From: Sphingobacteriales bacterium
GTDB taxonomy: Bacteria > Bacteroidota > Bacteroidia > AKYH767-A > OLB10
Assembly (NCBI GenBank): GCA_021299095.1
Contig: JAJTFW010000010.1
Span: 38,126-102,125 of the forward strand
DNA: 64,000 nucleotides
Direction of reading: 5' to 3'
The notes beneath the pieces were generated by a model. That model had not been told where the DNA came from. It ran no database searches and worked only from the letters and a program-made list of their open reading frames with translations. The position numbers were made by a program, and so were the translations under genes. Shown here one piece after another: positions 8,737 to 43,970 of this stretch. How positions within the stretch are numbered: the stretch's first letter is position 1; every line of letters starts with the position of its first letter.

Positions 8737-11700
8737 ATGTTTCAAAACACGATCCGTAAAAGCGGATGGATCCTTGTGATCCATCTGCTTTTTTTCGTGT
8801 ACTCGGTGAATGGGCAAGCGGCATTCAGTGCGGATAAGCGCAGCGGATGTGCCCCATTGCAGGTCAACTTCACAAACCTGACACCCGGCAACAACTCGTA
8901 CACCTGGAATCTCGGGAATGGCAACCAACCCGTCACTACGAACGCTACGGCCAACTACAGCGTACCCGGCACCTATATTGTCACACTAACTGCGACATCA
9001 GTATCGGGAACAATCAGTGTCGTTACAGACACCATTACCGTACATCCCAAACCAACGGCAGCATTTTCAGTATCACAACTCAGCGGGTGTGTCGGTGCAA
9101 CGGTATTTCAATTTGCAAACTCATCTTCCGGTGCAACAGCGTATATCTGGGATTTTGGTGATGGCACCTCATCATCCGATGTAGACCCTAGCCACACCTA
9201 TAGTCAGCCTGGCACCTACTGTGTCAAACTGATTGCAGAAAGCGGAGCCGGTTGTAGGGATATCCGTATCCAAACCAATTGCATTACAGTTCATGCGCTC
9301 CCAAGCGCAAGCATTGGCATGAGCATGGGAGGCAGTTGCGATTCAAACACAGTATTCCAGTTCACCGGTTCCGGAAGCGGAATCAGCGCCTGGAGCTGGA
9401 ATTTCGGTGACGGATCGACTGCGAACACACAACAAGCAACACACATTTATGGCTCAACAGGATCATTTCCGGTGAGTCTGACTGTAACCAGTACAAATGG
9501 TTGCACAGATACTTTCTTTGCCAATGCGCCAGTTACCATAGGACCTGCATTATCGCCTGTATTCAGTGCAGCAGATAGCAGTGGATGTGCACCATTCACT
9601 ACGCAATTCAGTTGCACTATGCCGGGGACCACAACATGGAGTTGGGATTTTGGCGATGGAAATACATCCACCCTTGCCAATCCACAGCACACCTATGCAA
9701 CTGCGGGTATTTACAGCGTAAGCCTACAGGTGAGTACGACACCCGGATGCAGTGGAACTAGCATTGCCAATCAGCTCATCACGGTACATTCGATTCCAAC
9801 AGTTTCTGTCACCGCAAACCAGGATAGTGGTTGTGCCCCATTCTCAGTCCAATTTCAAAGCAATTCGACCGGATCCACCCAATTCAACTGGGACTTCGGC
9901 AACGGCAGCTCATCAACGCTGAACAACCCGACACATACCTATACACAAAGCGGCACCTTTACCCCTACCCTGACGGTTACATCGGGTGCCGGATGCACTG
10001 CAAGCACAAGCATACAACCCGCCATCAGGGTGTTTTCACCCAAAGCATTTTTCTCTGGCAGTCCGTTAATCGGCTGTCCCGGCATGACAGTGAATTTCCA
10101 ACACACAGCAGCCAGCACGTTTATCGTACAATACGATTGGAATTTCGGCGACGGGAATACCGGATCTGGTCGCAATGTGAGCCACACCTATACCCAGGCT
10201 GGTGTTTATTCGGTATCCCTTATTGTTACAAATAGCTTTGGATGCAAGGACACAGTAATTAAAAACAACTATGTCACTGTTCTGAACCCACAATTGACCA
10301 TTCAGAATCCTGACACCCTGTATGTATGCGAAGACCTGCCGGCCGTATTCAGTGATCCCGGAAATGCAAACATTTCATGGAGCTGGGATTTCGGAAATGG
10401 ATCGACATCCACCAACCAAACCGATGTGACCTTTTATACCCAGCCGGGGTTTTATACTGTAACCCTGCAGACCGTTATGCCCGGTGGTTGCGTTCAAACC
10501 TTTTCGCCATTCGCTATCGTTCGGGTCATTCCATACGACCCGCAGCCCATCCAATTCAGCCACGACAATCCCTGCAAACCCTATACGGTCAGTTTCAACA
10601 ATGCCACACCGGATGTGAACGGATATTCCTGGGATTTCGGTGACGGAAATAGCTCTACGCTCGCCAATCCGACACATTCCTACTATTACCCGGGGACTTA
10701 TGTAGTAACACTTTCCGTATTGGTAGGCGATGGCTGCGTAGGATCGATCTCAACAACGATTACCGTGGGACATCAAAATCCCATTCGGGTCAGTGACAAT
10801 GATATTTGCACCGGCGTCCGAACGAATATTTCCCTGGCAAATCCACTGGAGTTCTCATCAGCTACTTGGTTTTTCGGAGACGGGACATCGGGCACAGGGG
10901 CTTCTGTCTTCCACAACTACACGGACACTGGTGCCTTTGCTATTACATTAATCACGACCGACTTGAACGGATGCATTGATACATTCACCTATGCACCCAT
11001 CAATGTCCACAATCCCATCCCCTTGTTCGGCACTGTTCGCGATGCATGCATCAATTCGGCTGTACAATTCAACAACTTTTCAACTGGCGCCGATAACTAT
11101 GAATGGGAGTTTGGGGATGGTGGCACCGCTAATTCAGTAAATCCGATTCATACCTACACCCAAGCGGGTACGTACTCCGTCACACTTCACGCTACAAGCG
11201 GAACCTGCACGAGTTCACGCACCTGGAACGGCTACATTCACATCCATGCGCCTGAAAGCAGATTTAGCCTTATCGGTGCCGGTCCGTGCCTGCCGGTGAC
11301 TGTGAGCTTTAATGACCAGTCAACAGGCGCAGCATTCTGGAATTGGGAGTTTGGTGATGGAAACTCATCGACTTTGAATTTACCTACGCATGTGTACACC
11401 ACTCCACCTAGCGATTCCATCAGGCTGACCATTACGGATGCCTATGGATGTTCCGATGCCATGGCGATAGCACCATTTCCGGTCTATCAGGCCCAAGCCA
11501 ACGTGGATGACCCTACCGGCTGTATTCCGCATGCTGTACAGTTCACTGACCAATCGCAGCAGGGAATTGCATGGCAGTGGAATTTTGGCGATGGAACATA
11601 TTCGACTTCGCAAAATCCACAGCACACCTATTCCGCCAATGGATACTATACCGTGACTTTGATAGTGGAATTTCCCGGAAACTGCTTCGACACAGTGGTG

Positions 11701-13743
11701 TATACAGATATGATTCATGTGAATACTCCGGTTGCGGCATTTCATGCACCAAACGCGGCAGGATGTTCACCTACCCAAGTCAGTTTCATCAACACGAGCA
11801 GCCAAGCTGATCAATTCAGTTGGAATTTCGGCGATGGTAACACCTCGACTTTAAATAATGCCCAAAACATCTACTACATTCCGGGTACATACACGATTAC
11901 ACTCATTGCTTCGAACAACTACGGATGCGGCGATACGCTCATCAGACCGCAATACGTTAGCATTCCCGGCACATACACCCGATTTGGCATTTCCTCCACA
12001 TCAATTTGCGTTGGCGAACCCGTTTTCTTTAGTGACTCCTCAATCAATGCATCGGTCCATAGTTGGGATTTCGGTGATGGACCCGTTTCTTCCCAAGTTC
12101 AACCGTCACACACCTATGCTCAGGCGGGACAATACACCATTACGCTAATTACATGGGATAGCACTGGCTGCAGTTCGGCATACACCTATCCGCAGCCGAT
12201 TACCGTACACCCGAAGCCCGATGCTCTGGCAACTATAAATGACAGTGCATTTTGTACTTATGAGCCAGTTGCGTTTGTGAACGAATCGCAAGGTGGCTTC
12301 GCCTACAACTGGCAATTCGGCGACGGAACGAGCTCGAACATGTTTTCACCGGATCATCTTTACACGAACTCCGGCGTTTACACACCCGTACTAGAAGTCA
12401 TCACGGACATGGGTTGTAAAGACACTTTTGTGTTCTCGTCACCTGTAGAAATCCTTATGACTCCCAATGCAGGATTTACAGTCCCTGCACAAAAGCTGTG
12501 TCCAGGATCCGTGTTACAGATGAACAACACCTCTTCAGCACTGGATTCACCCGTATTCCTTTGGAATTTCGGCTTCACCACAAGTACCCAGATACACCCA
12601 ACAATCACGGTAGTACCCGGCACGCACGATATAACACTTTTCGTTTCAAACGCCAATGGCTGTAAGGACACGCTGTTTGTCGCATCGTCCGTTGAAGTAT
12701 ATGACACCCTTCCGCCTAATGCAGATCCGGTTGCTACTGCGACCGTTCAAGATGATGAGCATGTTGAAGTCATTTGGATGAATAGCAGCGCTAGCGATCT
12801 CAAAACATATCGGCTTTATCGACTTGACGCCACAATCAATCAGTGGGTGCTGATCCATGAGGATACATCCGCCACACCTGCATCAGTAAACCAGACAAGT
12901 CGCTTTACAGATAGCGGATTGAACACCTTGGAAAAGAGCTATAGTTACAAGTTACAGACCATCGATGTATGCGGTTATGCATTACCGCTAGATAGCCTCA
13001 TCGCATATACTACCATGAACGTAACGACAGCGGTCAACGGAACAATTGTTACGGTGAGCTGGACTCCCTACGAAGGCTGCGATTTCAACGAATACAGAAT
13101 TTACCGTAAGGAAAATGCCTTCAGTCAGTCCTTGGCTATCGCCACCGTACCACGCAACCAGTTGAGCTTCCTTGATACGACCATCCGATGCCCATATCCT
13201 TACGAATACCGCATTGAAGCCTTGGCATTGTGCGGAAGGGCATACACCTCATTCAGTGACACCAGTACAGCATTACCGGAGAACACTCTGGCAGACCAGG
13301 TCGCCGAAATAAAAAGGACTACCGTAGTCGATAACTCGAATGTATTGACCGAATGGCTTGAACCCATGTTAGCGCCCGAACGGGTTATTGAATACCAAAT
13401 TTTGCGATCGGTTGATGGCGGAACATATACCTACCTGGCAACCGTTCCTGCCGGAGTTCATTCTTTTCTGGACGAGGACACAGATGTTCAGCAGAAGCAG
13501 TACAATTACCTGATTCTTCCTGTAAACGACTGCTACTTGACAGGCATGCAAAGCAACGAAGGCTCCAGCATACTTGTGAAAGGCACTTGGAAAGATTACA
13601 AAACCACCCTGAACTGGAACCCATACATGCGATGGGATGCCGGGGTGAACCACTACCGCATTGAACGGGAAGAAAGCCCCGGAAACTGGATTTTTATCGG
13701 AGACACCAATCCAGGTACTACCGTTATCGAAATCAACGAGTAA
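8737..13743 (+). CDS. giant secreted PKD-repeat protein, C-terminus apparently truncated
   Basis: A 1668-residue exported protein. The signal peptide (about 1-27) is followed by 16 PKD-type repeats, each carrying a W-x-FGDG-like core and a later Y-x-V-T-L strand. Most repeats begin near a GC(A/P) cysteine and contain a second cysteine, suggesting one disulfide per repeat. From about residue 1325 onward several FN3-like modules follow. Large Bacteroidota proteins of this design usually finish with a type IX secretion sorting domain; here the reading frame stops inside an FN3-like module (LNWNPYMRWDAGV). A fresh promoter-like TACCTTTA for the histidine kinase follows 19 bases later. The likely role is surface adhesion. 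Confidence 0.88.
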   Translation: MFQNTIRKSGWILVIHLLFFVYSVNGQAAFSADKRSGCAPLQVNFTNLTPGNNSYTWNLGNGNQPVTTNATANYSVPGTYIVTLTATSVSGTISVVTDTITVHPKPTAAFSVSQLSGCVGATVFQFANSSSGATAYIWDFGDGTSSSDVDPSHTYSQPGTYCVKLIAESGAGCRDIRIQTNCITVHALPSASIGMSMGGSCDSNTVFQFTGSGSGISAWSWNFGDGSTANTQQATHIYGSTGSFPVSLTVTSTNGCTDTFFANAPVTIGPALSPVFSAADSSGCAPFTTQFSCTMPGTTTWSWDFGDGNTSTLANPQHTYATAGIYSVSLQVSTTPGCSGTSIANQLITVHSIPTVSVTANQDSGCAPFSVQFQSNSTGSTQFNWDFGNGSSSTLNNPTHTYTQSGTFTPTLTVTSGAGCTASTSIQPAIRVFSPKAFFSGSPLIGCPGMTVNFQHTAASTFIVQYDWNFGDGNTGSGRNVSHTYTQAGVYSVSLIVTNSFGCKDTVIKNNYVTVLNPQLTIQNPDTLYVCEDLPAVFSDPGNANISWSWDFGNGSTSTNQTDVTFYTQPGFYTVTLQTVMPGGCVQTFSPFAIVRVIPYDPQPIQFSHDNPCKPYTVSFNNATPDVNGYSWDFGDGNSSTLANPTHSYYYPGTYVVTLSVLVGDGCVGSISTTITVGHQNPIRVSDNDICTGVRTNISLANPLEFSSATWFFGDGTSGTGASVFHNYTDTGAFAITLITTDLNGCIDTFTYAPINVHNPIPLFGTVRDACINSAVQFNNFSTGADNYEWEFGDGGTANSVNPIHTYTQAGTYSVTLHATSGTCTSSRTWNGYIHIHAPESRFSLIGAGPCLPVTVSFNDQSTGAAFWNWEFGDGNSSTLNLPTHVYTTPPSDSIRLTITDAYGCSDAMAIAPFPVYQAQANVDDPTGCIPHAVQFTDQSQQGIAWQWNFGDGTYSTSQNPQHTYSANGYYTVTLIVEFPGNCFDTVVYTDMIHVNTPVAAFHAPNAAGCSPTQVSFINTSSQADQFSWNFGDGNTSTLNNAQNIYYIPGTYTITLIASNNYGCGDTLIRPQYVSIPGTYTRFGISSTSICVGEPVFFSDSSINASVHSWDFGDGPVSSQVQPSHTYAQAGQYTITLITWDSTGCSSAYTYPQPITVHPKPDALATINDSAFCTYEPVAFVNESQGGFAYNWQFGDGTSSNMFSPDHLYTNSGVYTPVLEVITDMGCKDTFVFSSPVEILMTPNAGFTVPAQKLCPGSVLQMNNTSSALDSPVFLWNFGFTTSTQIHPTITVVPGTHDITLFVSNANGCKDTLFVASSVEVYDTLPPNADPVATATVQDDEHVEVIWMNSSASDLKTYRLYRLDATINQWVLIHEDTSATPASVNQTSRFTDSGLNTLEKSYSYKLQTIDVCGYALPLDSLIAYTTMNVTTAVNGTIVTVSWTPYEGCDFNEYRIYRKENAFSQSLAIATVPRNQLSFLDTTIRCPYPYEYRIEALALCGRAYTSFSDTSTALPENTLADQVAEIKRTTVVDNSNVLTEWLEPMLAPERVIEYQILRSVDGGTYTYLATVPAGVHSFLDEDTDVQQKQYNYLILPVNDCYLTGMQSNEGSSILVKGTWKDYKTTLNWNPYMRWDAGVNHYRIEREESPGNWIFIGDTNPGTTVIEINE
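8890..12660 (+). repeat. array of 16 PKD-encoding repeats
   Basis: Sixteen units of about 230-250 bases each encode a variant of W(D/N)FGDG followed about 15-20 residues later by a Y-x-x-x-G-x-Y-x-V-x-L strand. The units are diverged at DNA level, so this is an old domain array and not a recent tandem duplication. The last unit has lost the FGDG core (FGFTTS). Confidence 0.85.
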
Positions 13744-17260: not shown

Positions 17261-20200
17261 GTGGACTTAAATCAACTCCTTGACACGTTCGCTGCCCACC
17301 CCTCTCTGAGGCAACTGGAGCAGGCACTCCGCAGCAGAAATGAACATAGAATCCACATTGACGGCCTTAGTGGATCCTCTGGTGCCGTTTGCTGCGCTGC
17401 ATTAATCAGAAATATGCCCCACCCGGCGCTCTTCATATTCGGAGACCGGGAAGAGGCAGCATACTTTCAAAATGATTTAGAAAACCTACTGGGTAGCCAG
17501 AAGGCCTTACTTTTTCCAGCCTCATACAAAAAACCCTACCAACTCGATCAGCATGACAAAGGCATGATCCTGCAGCGGGCGGAAGTCCTGTCCAGAATCA
17601 ACCGGACGCGCGACCGCTTCATTATCATTGCTACAGCCGAATCGATCCATGAACGCGTTGTCACTGGAAGCACCCTTGAACGCAACACCCTCGATTTACG
17701 CACAGACAGTGTGCTCGACACTGCCTTCATGTTGGAGTTCCTGCAGGAGAATGCGTTCGAACAAACCGACTTCGTATATGAACCTGGTCAATTCGCAATT
17801 CGGGGTGGAATCGTCGACATCTACAGTTTCGCAAATGACCTGCCCTACCGCATCGAACTTGCAGGAAACCGCATCCATTCGATGCGGACCTTCGATCCTT
17901 CCACCCAGTTGAGCGAGCAGATGATGGGAACAATCACCATCATTCCGAACATCCAAACAGGTCTTATCCGTGAGGCTCATCAATCATTTCTCGATTTCAT
18001 CCCTTCCGATACCATCATTTACATACGCGACTACCGCTACTGTATTGATAGCATCCGGAGTTCACTTAACACCGCAAGAGAAAAATTCGGTGATGAAATA
18101 AAAGCAGGCGTCGATCAGAATGTTTACCCGATCAAGGATTTGTTTGACCAGACTGAAACCATTGAGGACAAGTTAAACGCGCACTGTATTGTCGAACTAG
18201 GCACGAAAGGTGTATCTGATGCAGGACGAAAGCTGACTTTCAACGCGAAGCCGCAGCCACATTTCAATAAGAATTTCAACCTCTTGCTAGAGGATCTTTA
18301 CGCAAACCAGGACAAGAAAATTACGAACGTCCTTTTTGCCGAATCTGCGCGTCAATCGGAGCGCCTGTACAGCATCCTCGAAGACATGCCACGTCCGGAA
18401 AACCGGAAAGGAAGCAGCCTTCTATTCCATACGATGAATACGGCCTTGCACCAGGGTTTCATCGACGAAGACCTCCGTATTGCCTGCTACACCGACCATC
18501 AGATTTTCGACCGGTATCACCGCTTCAAGCTCAAGAAAAACTACAGTAAGAGTGAAGCTATCACCCTCAAAGAAATCCAAAGCCTCAAACCTGGCGATTT
18601 TATAACGCACATCGATCATGGTGTTGGCCGGTTCGGTGGCCTTGAGACCCTTGATGTAAACGGCAGGAAACAGGAAGCTATACGACTTGTATACAAGGAC
18701 AACGACATCCTATATATCAGTATCCACTCGTTGCACCGAATCACCCGGTTTGCGGGTAAAGAGGGTTCTGTTCCGAGCCTCAACAAGCTTGGCAGCACGG
18801 CCTGGACGAATCTCAAACAGAAAACGAAGAAAAAGGTCAAGGACATCGCCAAAGACCTTATTGACCTGTATGCTAAACGTAGAGCTCAGCGCGGGCACGC
18901 CTTTGCCAAGGACAGCTATTTGCAGACAGAACTTGAAGCCTCGTTCATGTACGAGGATACTCCTGACCAGGTAAAAAGCACCCGTGATGTGAAGCGGGAC
19001 ATGGAGAAAGACTACCCGATGGACAGGTTGATTTGTGGTGATGTCGGGTTCGGCAAGACAGAAATCGCGGTTCGTGCAGCTTATAAAGCGGCAGCCGATG
19101 GGAAACAGGTGGCCATACTCGTTCCAACTACAATTTTGGCACTGCAGCATTTCCGCACATTCAGTGAACGCTTAAAAGAATTCCCTTGCCGAATCGACTA
19201 CCTGAACCGATTCAAAAGTGCGGCAAAACAACAAGAGACTCTCAAAGCACTTGCGGAAGGGAAAATCGATATCATTATCGGCACCCATAGAATACTCAGC
19301 AAAGACATCCGCTTCAAGGATTTGGGACTGATGATCATCGATGAAGAACAGAAATTCGGTGTTGCATCCAAGGAGAAACTGAAATCACTTCGTGTAAACG
19401 TCGACACCCTGACCTTGACCGCTACACCGATTCCCCGTACGCTTCAATTTTCCCTTATGGGCGCACGGGATCTCAGCATTATCAATACTCCGCCTCCGAA
19501 CCGCTTTCCGGTAACCACTGAGCTGCATGTATTCAATGATGCACTGATCCGAGATGCAATCCTGTATGAGATATCTCGCGGAGGACAGGTTTTCTTTGTA
19601 CATAACCGCGTGCAGGACATTCACGAAATTGAAGCGTTAATCGGCAGGCTATGCCCCGGCGTTCGAACCGGAGTGGGTCACGGACAAATGGATGGTGACA
19701 AATTGGAAGACGTTCTGGTACGGTTCATTGAAGGCGAAATTGACGTATTGATTGCAACTACCATTATTGAATCGGGGCTGGATATCAGCAATGCAAATAC
19801 CATCATTATCAACAATGCGCATTACTTCGGCTTGAGCGACCTCCACCAGATGCGCGGAAGGGTCGGACGTTCAAACCGAAAGGCCTTTTGCTATCTTCTT
19901 TCACCTCCGCTTACCGTACTAACACCTGAAGCCAGGCAGCGCCTAAAAGCCATTGAAGAGCATGCCGACCTGGGTAGTGGATTCCAAGTGGCGATGCGGG
20001 ATCTGGATATACGCGGGGCTGGCAACCTGTTGGGAGGAGAACAAAGCGGATTCATATCGGAAGTCGGTTTTGAGATGTACCACAAGATCCTTGACGAAGC
20101 CATCCGTGAATTGAAGGAGAGTGATTACAAAGACCTGTTTGAACAGGAAGAAACGACCGAATACGTACGGGATTGCCAGATCGATACCGATATGGAAATG

Positions 20201-20620
20201 CGTATTCCCGAGGACTATGTGTCCAACATTGCTGAACGGCTTGCATTGTACCGCGAACTGGACGAAAGCGAAACTGAGGAGCAGCTGGCCAAATTTGAAT
20301 CCCGCCTGCGGGACCGTTTCGGACCCGTCCCATCACAGGTCGACGAACTGATGAGCACTATCCGATTACGCTGGACAGCACGGAAACTTGGATTCGAGAA
20401 AATCGTGTTGAAGAATAGGTCACTGAGGGCTTATTTCATTCCCAACCAGGACTCAGCCTATTTCCAAAGCCAACTTTTCAGCGGCATCCTGAAGTTTGTG
20501 CAGCAGCATGCGCGGTCTTGCAAAATGAAAGAAGACAAGGGCAAACTCAGCCTGACACTGACTCCGGTCAGCAGCATCGCTGAGGCAGAACGTCAGCTTG
20601 CACTCATGCTAGGCTCCTAA
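17261..20620 (+). CDS. mfd: transcription-repair coupling factor Mfd
   Basis: Removes RNA polymerase stalled at DNA lesions and recruits the UvrAB excision machinery. The 1119-residue protein shows an N-terminal UvrB-like region (about 1-330) and a CarD-like RNA polymerase interaction domain (about 443-500, with ITHIDHGVGRFGG). A superfamily-2 translocase follows, with Walker A GDVGFGKTE at about 594, DEEQKFG, TATPIPRTL and the RGRVGRS motif VI. It ends in a C-terminal TRCF domain. The start is a GTG. No repair genes are adjacent. Confidence 0.96.
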   Translation: MDLNQLLDTFAAHPSLRQLEQALRSRNEHRIHIDGLSGSSGAVCCAALIRNMPHPALFIFGDREEAAYFQNDLENLLGSQKALLFPASYKKPYQLDQHDKGMILQRAEVLSRINRTRDRFIIIATAESIHERVVTGSTLERNTLDLRTDSVLDTAFMLEFLQENAFEQTDFVYEPGQFAIRGGIVDIYSFANDLPYRIELAGNRIHSMRTFDPSTQLSEQMMGTITIIPNIQTGLIREAHQSFLDFIPSDTIIYIRDYRYCIDSIRSSLNTAREKFGDEIKAGVDQNVYPIKDLFDQTETIEDKLNAHCIVELGTKGVSDAGRKLTFNAKPQPHFNKNFNLLLEDLYANQDKKITNVLFAESARQSERLYSILEDMPRPENRKGSSLLFHTMNTALHQGFIDEDLRIACYTDHQIFDRYHRFKLKKNYSKSEAITLKEIQSLKPGDFITHIDHGVGRFGGLETLDVNGRKQEAIRLVYKDNDILYISIHSLHRITRFAGKEGSVPSLNKLGSTAWTNLKQKTKKKVKDIAKDLIDLYAKRRAQRGHAFAKDSYLQTELEASFMYEDTPDQVKSTRDVKRDMEKDYPMDRLICGDVGFGKTEIAVRAAYKAAADGKQVAILVPTTILALQHFRTFSERLKEFPCRIDYLNRFKSAAKQQETLKALAEGKIDIIIGTHRILSKDIRFKDLGLMIIDEEQKFGVASKEKLKSLRVNVDTLTLTATPIPRTLQFSLMGARDLSIINTPPPNRFPVTTELHVFNDALIRDAILYEISRGGQVFFVHNRVQDIHEIEALIGRLCPGVRTGVGHGQMDGDKLEDVLVRFIEGEIDVLIATTIIESGLDISNANTIIINNAHYFGLSDLHQMRGRVGRSNRKAFCYLLSPPLTVLTPEARQRLKAIEEHADLGSGFQVAMRDLDIRGAGNLLGGEQSGFISEVGFEMYHKILDEAIRELKESDYKDLFEQEETTEYVRDCQIDTDMEMRIPEDYVSNIAERLALYRELDESETEEQLAKFESRLRDRFGPVPSQVDELMSTIRLRWTARKLGFEKIVLKNRSLRAYFIPNQDSAYFQSQLFSGILKFVQQHARSCKMKEDKGKLSLTLTPVSSIAEAERQLALMLGS

Positions 20621-40530: not shown

Positions 40531-41237
40531 ATGACGAGTTTCTTCGAGTTTCTAAATTCTTCCGTTGGCAGAAAATGGCTGATGGCCCTTACCGGGCTGT
40601 TTCTATGCATCTTCCTGGTTGTCCATGTATCCGGTAATCTTCAATTGTTCAAGGACGACAATGGAATGTCCTTCAACCAGTACTCGGTTTTCATGACCAC
40701 TTTCACACCAATCAAAGTGGTCTCTTACCTCCTGTACGCTACTGTGATTGTGCACGCCATCAATGGTTTTTACCTGATGGGCAGGAACCGTAAAGCCAGA
40801 CCCGTGGCCTATGCCTCCACATGGCCAATTTTTGGTATAACTACAAGTTTGGTAGCATTGACTGGAAGACCTATGTTGTTGAAGCCAGCACCGGAAAACT
40901 GGTGACCGAAGACACCATTCCTGCAGCTGAAGCACTTGCACAAAACCTGCAGCCTGTTACCATGGAATACATGGGGAACAACATCATCATTTGCAAAGAC
41001 CTGTACAGCGTAGTAGCCGAAGCGTTCAAATCGCCGGCCCTCTCAGCCTTTTATATTTTAAGCATGGCGGCTTTGTCCTACCATTTGTTGCATGGGTTTC
41101 AGAGTGCTTTCCATACACTGGGGCTACGGAGAAAACGCTACGAAACCCTAATCCGGACAGCTGGCTTAGCGGTATTTGGTGTGATCATACCGGCCCTATT
41201 CGCTGCAATGCCAATCTATTTCCTCTTTGTCAAGTAA
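40531..41237 (+). pseudogene. sdhC: succinate dehydrogenase cytochrome b subunit, interrupted by an internal deletion with frame change
   Basis: SdhC anchors the succinate dehydrogenase/fumarate reductase complex and binds haem b and quinone. The first frame (40531-40905) encodes the normal N-terminus: helix 1 (FLCIFLVVHVSGNLQLF), helix 2 (VVSYLLYATVIVHAINGFYLM) and RNRKARPVAYA. The rest continues in another frame from 40818: HMANFWYNYKFG, the soluble loop, YILSMAALSYHLLHGFQSAF and the last helix [19 protein letters not shown]. From memory of the family, about 28 residues containing most of one membrane helix should lie between YA and HMANFW. Around 40815-40818 that stretch is missing and the frame is lost. 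sdhA and sdhB are intact, so an assembly error is possible. Confidence 0.8.
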
Positions 41238-41250
41238 TCCTATCGTCTCC

Positions 41251-43164
41251 ATGAAGCTCGATTCCAAGATACCTGCAGGACCACTTGCCGAAAAGTGGGA
41301 CCGCCATAAGTTCAATTGCAAACTGGTTAACCCGGCCAACAAACGCAAGTACGATGTCATCATTGTCGGTACAGGTCTAGCCGGTGCGTCGGCCGCTGCT
41401 TCACTGGCCGAACTCGGGTACAATGTAAAGACCTTTTGCTTTCAGGACTCACCCCGTCGTGCGCACAGTATCGCGGCACAAGGAGGAATCAATGCAGCCA
41501 AGAATTACAGAAACGACGGTGACAGCGTTTACCGGCTTTTCTACGATACGATTAAAGGTGGCGACTACCGTGCGCGCGAGGCAAATGTTCACCGCCTGGC
41601 ACAGGTCAGTGTAAACATCATCGACCAATGCGTTGCTCAAGGTGTACCCTTCGCCCGTGAGTATGGCGGCTTACTTGACAACCGCTCGTTTGGTGGTGCA
41701 CAGGTGTCGCGTACGTTTTATGCCAAAGGGCAGACAGGCCAGCAATTGTTGCTCGGCGCCTACTCCGCCATGAACAGGCAGATTGGCGAGGGTAAGATCA
41801 AGAGCTATACCCGTCACGAAATGTTGGAGTTGGTCATGATTGACGGACAGGCGCGCGGAATCATTGCACGCGATATGGTCACGGGTGAGATTGAACGACA
41901 CAGTGCGCATGCCGTAGTTTTGGCGACTGGTGGATACGGAAACGTTTTTTATCTGACCACTTACGCTCGTGGAAGTAACACCACAGCCATTTGGAGAGCG
42001 CACAAAAAAGGCGCCTTCTTCGGCAATCCCTGTTTCACACAAATCCATCCGACTTGCATTCCCGTCTCGGGCGATCATCAGTCTAAATTGACACTCATGT
42101 CGGAGTCGCTGCGAAACGACGGAAGGATTTGGGTACCGAAGCAGAAAGGTGATCCGCGTAAGCCACAGGATATTCCAGAAGAGGATCGTGATTATTACCT
42201 GGAGCGCCGATACCCTTCATTCGGAAACCTGGTACCCCGCGACATTGCTTCGCGTGCCGCCAAGGATATGTGTGACAAAGGCTTCGGAGTCGGAAAAACC
42301 GGACTTGCGGTTTACCTCGACTTCAGTGATGCCATAAACCGGATGGGTGCAAAAACCGTTGAATCCAAATACGGCAACCTTTTCGATATGTACAAGCAGA
42401 TCACCGGTGAGGATCCCTACACGACGCCGATGATGATTTACCCTGCAGTACACTATACCATGGGAGGACTTTGGGTGGATTACAACCTGATGACCACGAT
42501 TCCCGGACTCTACGCATGTGGGGAGGCTAACTTCAGTGACCACGGTGCCAACCGCCTGGGGGCATCCGCATTGATGCAAGGCCTGGCAGATGGCTATTTC
42601 GTGCTCCCCTACACCATCGGAGATTACCTGGCCGGAGAGGAGCGCAAGGCCATCCCAAATGATACCCCTGAATTCATGGAGGCGGAGGCAGCTGTGAAAG
42701 AACGACTTGCTGCGCTGCTTGCCATCCGTGGCAATAAGACCGTACACGAGTATCACCGCGAACTCGGACTCATCATGTGGAATTACTGCGGTATGGCCCG
42801 CAATGAATCCGGTTTGAACGAGGGAATCGAGAAAATCAGAAGCCTGAAAAAAGACTTTTGGAACAACCTGCTGGTCCCTGGCGGCAGTGCCGAACTCAAC
42901 CAGAATCTCGAAAAAGCGGGTCGCGTTGCTGACCTGATCGAGCTCGGCGAACTGATGATGGTGGACGCTCTTGACCGGAAGGAAAGCTGCGGAGGACATT
43001 TCCGCGAGGAATACCAGACTCCCGAAAACGAAGCCTTGCGTGATGACGAAAACTATGCTTACGTAGCTGCCTGGGAATACAAAGGACAAGACCAACCGCA
43101 TCAACTTCACAAAGAGGATCTGGTTTTCGAAAATGTGAAACCCAGCCAACGTTCTTACAAGTAA
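41251..43164 (+). CDS. sdhA: succinate dehydrogenase/fumarate reductase flavoprotein subunit
   Basis: Catalytic subunit with covalently bound FAD that interconverts succinate and fumarate. The 637-residue protein has the dinucleotide motif [19 protein letters not shown], the FAD-histidine region [11 protein letters not shown], and a substrate site in [18 protein letters not shown] and [27 protein letters not shown] are further family motifs. The architecture matches the long FrdA-like type found with the dihaem SdhC. It starts 13 bases after the sdhC frame ends and 47 bases before sdhB. Confidence 0.95.
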
Positions 43165-43211: not shown

Positions 43212-43970
43212 ATGAGCGGAACCATGAACCTGACACTGAAGGTGTGGAGGCAAAAAAATGCAACCACCGGAGGCTCTTTCGAAACCTATGCGGCGCGCAA
43301 CATCAGCCCCGACATGTCCTTTCTTGAGATGCTCGATGTGGTAAACGAAGACCTCATCAAAGGCGGAAAAGAACCCATTGCATTTGATCACGATTGCCGT
43401 GAAGGTATTTGCGGAATGTGCAGCATGTACATCAACGGCCGGGCTCATGGTCCTGTAAAAGGGGTCACGACCTGCCAGTTACATATGCGAAGCTTCAATA
43501 GCGGAGAGACGATCACCATCGAACCCTGGCGTGCTGCCGCATTTCCTGTAATTCGCGATCTGGTCGTTGACCGTAGATCATTTGACAAGATTCAGCAGGC
43601 CGGTGGATTTGTTTCAGTAAATACAGGAGCCGCTCCTGATGCCAATAGTATTCCGGTTCCGAAGGCGAATGCCGATGAAGCCTTCAATTCTGCAGCTTGT
43701 ATCGGATGCGGAGCCTGTGTAGCCGCATGCACCAACAGCTCAGCGATGCTGTTCCTGTCGGCCAAAGTCTCTCAATACGCATTGCTCCCCCAAGGGCATG
43801 TAGAAGCAAAGCGCCGCGTTGCAAACATGTTAAAAGCGCATGATGAGGCAGGTTTTGGATCCTGTACCAATACGGAAGCCTGCGAAGCCGAATGCCCCAA
43901 GGGGATTTCGGTCAGTAACATCGGTCGATTGAACGCCGAATTTGCTGGAGCACTCTTCAGTGGCGAGTAA
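43212..43970 (+). CDS. sdhB: succinate dehydrogenase/fumarate reductase iron-sulfur subunit
   Basis: Electron-transfer subunit linking the flavin to the membrane quinone site. The 252-residue protein has [2Fe-2S] cysteines in [15 protein letters not shown] and VTTCQ. Two further sets, [11 protein letters not shown] and [14 protein letters not shown], bind the [4Fe-4S] and [3Fe-4S] clusters. The start could also be the ATG at 43224. No terminator hairpin is evident downstream before the Kazal gene. Confidence 0.95.

Follow-up and report, generated by a model that had tools for sequence, protein, structure and literature searches.

Loss of 82 Nucleotides with a Frame Change in sdhC of a Sphingobacteriales Draft Genome, Probably a Defect of the Assembly

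The sdhC-sdhA-sdhB operon and the junction in sdhC

We analyzed a 64,000-nt stretch (the window) of contig C47 from the draft genome of a Sphingobacteriales bacterium; coordinates are those of the window unless a contig is named. Two congeners that carry sdhC, G003 (JAGOJO010000109.1) and G002 (CAIXTT010000249.1), served as references. On its plus strand the window holds an operon in the order sdhC-sdhA-sdhB, with sdhC divided between two reading frames.

40531..40815, plus strand: first part of sdhC, 95 codons encoding the N-terminus, the first two membrane helices and two conserved His residues; 83% identity to congener residues 1–94
40816..40817, plus strand: junction, 2 nt replacing codons 96–123; net loss of 82 nt relative to both congeners
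40816..40905, plus strand: out-of-frame continuation of the first frame past the junction, 29 codons and then TGA
40818..41237 (stop included), plus strand: second part of sdhC in the other frame, from His124, with the last two membrane helices; 67–68% identity to congener
41251..43164, plus strand: sdhA, intact; NF005749, 1198.8 bits, positions 5–641 of 641
43212..43970, plus strand: sdhB, intact; NF005746, 418.2 bits, positions 1–246 of 250

The first frame of sdhC runs from ATG at 40531 to GCC at 40813–40815 (Ala95) and encodes a sequence that begins with MTSFFEFLNSS and ends in NRKARPVAYA; the 29 codons that follow the junction are unrelated to SdhC and end at TGA 40903–40905. Homology resumes in the second frame with CAC (His) at 40818, followed by ATG at 40821, and this frame closes with a stop at 41235–41237. 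The original prediction, that a segment had been lost together with a change of frame at a junction within 40815–40818, thus agrees with the end of the Ala95 codon at 40815 and the return of homology at 40818. Neither part of sdhC contains an internal stop codon, and no run of N was found at the junction.

Both parts match TIGR02046, the SdhC b558 family that anchors the type-B succinate:menaquinone reductase of Bacteroidota, and they do so at different profile positions, 1–86 for the first part (67.8 bits) and 134–209 for the second (51.6 bits), so that no single continuous frame reaches the curated cut-off of 96 bits. The congener residues aligned to the two parts are 1–96 and 122–262. The locus resembles the family in its gene order, in the presence of sdhA and sdhB in the operon and in its conserved His residues; it differs in the absence of codons 96–123 and the change of frame, with the result that no one frame encodes the protein. 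The flanking subunits, also predicted to be intact, match their families end to end. A literature search on the b558 anchor returned nothing useful.

Elsewhere in the window, positions 8737–13743 encode a 1668-aa protein consisting largely of about 15 PKD domains, and positions 17261–20620 encode an Mfd-type transcription-repair coupling factor of 1119 aa. A congener open reading frame aligns with this Mfd-type gene in two parts that lie in the same frame; the interval separating the parts is about 600 nt here versus about 100 nt in the congener.

Size and content of the lost segment

Arg90 and His124 are separated by 33 residues (99 nt) in the two congeners with the gene and in most relatives, and by 17 nt here, which sets the net loss at 82 nt (1 modulo 3): the 28 codons 96–123 are gone and 2 nt are left in their place. 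About 28 residues and about 85 bases, with a remainder of 1 on division by three, had been expected; the first and last figures are exact and the second is close. On an AlphaFold model of the intact congener SdhC (mean pLDDT 85), the lost part corresponds to the loop 90–107 and to residues 108–123 of helix 108–134, the third membrane helix. Most of one transmembrane helix is therefore missing, as had been proposed, and without the first 16 residues of this predicted helix the five helices of the SdhC b558 family are not complete. In an alignment of 18 relatives, the invariant residues W105, S107, M110, L113 and G114 fall within the loss, and H124 is retained in the other frame. His32, His75, His124 and His212/215 (alignment numbering) are all present, divided between the two frames; the conserved His residues of SdhC presumably bind heme.

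The gene is intact in both of these congeners as well as in about 45 other relatives, and no short or split form was found among the relatives inspected. G001, a draft of the same genus rated 97% complete, has no match to sdhC or to an SDH-type sdhA; these genes are probably missing from the bin, and their absence was not counted as evidence.

The genome under study comprises 2.51 Mb in 93 contigs and is rated 96% complete and 1.4% contaminated. We searched all of it for a second sdhC with the intact congener protein, for a stray copy of the missing segment with the junction-flanking DNA and the congener protein, and for a second succinate dehydrogenase, and none of these was found. The sole other match to Succ_DH_flav_C, on contig C81, was rejected as a second enzyme of this kind, being weak and likely an L-aspartate oxidase.

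Signs of older decay were sought in the remainder of sdhC and in sdhA and sdhB. None was seen: the sequence is otherwise clean, and most differences between sdhC and the congener gene are third-position changes (counts for codon positions 1/2/3: 16/6/53 and 40/16/90). In-frame stops within matches were discarded as a signal of decay because they were mostly shadow frames on the opposite strand.

Frame changes across the draft genome

We compared 971 kb of this genome with 941 kb of G003, searching the proteins of each against the DNA of the other and inspecting the sequences at break sites by eye. With this genome as the target, 5 of the 176 orthologue pairs showed a frame change inside the gene, and every one was a net loss (about 37–169 nt).

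sdhC, contig C47: −82 nt
oligopeptide-type ABC binding protein, contig C38 at about 985: −83 nt, by eye in two bites
tsaD, contig C59 at about 13257: −169 nt
lpxC-fabZ fusion, contig C61 at about 4370: −38 nt
small unknown gene, contig C61 at about 1914: −37 nt

With G003 as the target, no frame-changing loss of 30–200 nt was found in 203 pairs; there were two one-base frame changes and one apparent change of −533 where two long open frames overlap. When sdhC is left out, the excess over this control is modest, 4/175 versus 0/203, with a one-sided chance of about 0.05 by hand calculation. The broken copies of tsaD (TIGR03723) and lpxC-fabZ (NF009667) are the only ones in the whole genome, and both genes are normally essential.

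A codon-model scan was also run on this genome and G003. Under a strict penalty it missed sdhC and tsaD, and under a loose penalty most of its calls were ordinary gene overlaps; we kept a candidate only if the family evidence for it was clear. The scan together with family searches added three genes on C38: clpB (at about 13490), with a frame change and profile positions 315–366 absent; rlpA, with profile positions 34–44 absent; and murQ, with a small frame break. The first 20 kb of C38 hold four lesions, at about 985, 13491, 17983 and 19271 (ABC binding protein, clpB, rlpA and murQ), and this contig looks especially unreliable; C38 and C61 may be low-coverage contigs. Across the 117-kb contig C47, which carries sdhC, no further break was found. 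The remaining sequence of the other broken genes looks well preserved, and neither a shared motif nor an obvious repeat was seen at the break junctions.

A run of 23 N at C47:38103–38125, directly before window position 1 and between an OmpH/Skp-like gene and murI, indicates that the draft was scaffolded. It is the only N run in the 971 kb, and none lies inside a gene where gap sizes could be calibrated; the length of the 23-N gap was rejected as a gauge of gap bias because the gap is intergenic and thus uninformative.

Origin of the loss in sdhC

Taken together, these data point to the 82-nt loss being a defect of the draft assembly and not biology, to which we assign a probability of about 0.79. 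Of the two origins originally put forward, a broken anchor or an assembly dropout, the survey favors the second, with recurrent net losses in this genome and none of that size in the reverse comparison. An assembly error is likely because similar losses break other genes, including the single-copy tsaD and lpxC-fabZ, and a cell with all these genes broken is not expected to live. Accordingly, the bases were most likely lost in assembly rather than in the cell. A short stretch was probably dropped when two pieces were joined, with no gap mark left. By extension from the other contigs, we infer that sdhC shares its cause with the other lesions. These losses in unrelated genes exceed those of the control genome but cluster on C38 and C61, with four other lesions on the former and two on the latter, while C47 is otherwise free of breaks; the loss in sdhC could therefore have a separate cause. 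Cooley and Wright (2024, PMC11017572) documented false pseudogenes made by assembly in bacterial genomes and implicated the assembler, the platform and the coverage; their study did not cover metagenome-assembled genomes. The present draft is similar in that several normally selected genes appear broken; it differs in that the lesions are losses of about 37–169 nt, whereas those in the isolate genomes were frameshifts and internal stops.

A real and recent deletion of 82 nt, affecting the sequenced cells or a fraction of the population, would leave SdhC without its third helix and the succinate dehydrogenase without a working anchor. The clean junction in a long contig with no other breaks, the normal coding sequence on both flanks and the lack of a second succinate dehydrogenase are all in keeping with such an event, and in certain conditions some bacteria tolerate the loss of this enzyme. 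The locus does resemble a pseudogene formed by a clean internal deletion with a frame change. However, neither sdhC nor sdhA and sdhB show further decay, the gene is intact in both congeners holding it and in all other relatives inspected, and similar losses affect tsaD and lpxC-fabZ, single-copy genes that no viable cell should lack. We consider a real deletion unlikely.

Much less probable is a working SdhC in two pieces or shortened, in which translation would restart at ATG 40821 and helices 1–2 and 4–5 would assemble without helix 3. This ATG is in frame with the second part, opens it and lies inside the first reading frame, and each half keeps its conserved His residues; yet no relative has such a form, five invariant residues and most of a membrane helix are lost, and with one helix fewer the second half would sit in the membrane with inverted topology. 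We likewise give little credence to the organism living with a split SdhC that lacks the third helix, its succinate dehydrogenase still working or acting as a detached soluble enzyme. Repair during reading, by frameshift, bypass or splicing, can be practically dismissed even though the frame resumes at the homologous point, since codons are missing rather than added, recoding cannot supply 28 residues that the genome does not encode, and the search for another copy of them found none. Unless the assembly is in error, the missing bases already contradict such a repair.

If the loss were real, it would exemplify a respiratory complex that lacks a membrane helix. We favor instead the assembly defect, under which the sdhC of the organism itself is very probably normal. 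The finding calls for caution, in that this draft, with ratings of 96% completeness and 1.4% contamination, still has within-gene losses with a frame change in several genes, and any other gene found broken in it needs to be compared with reads before it is interpreted.
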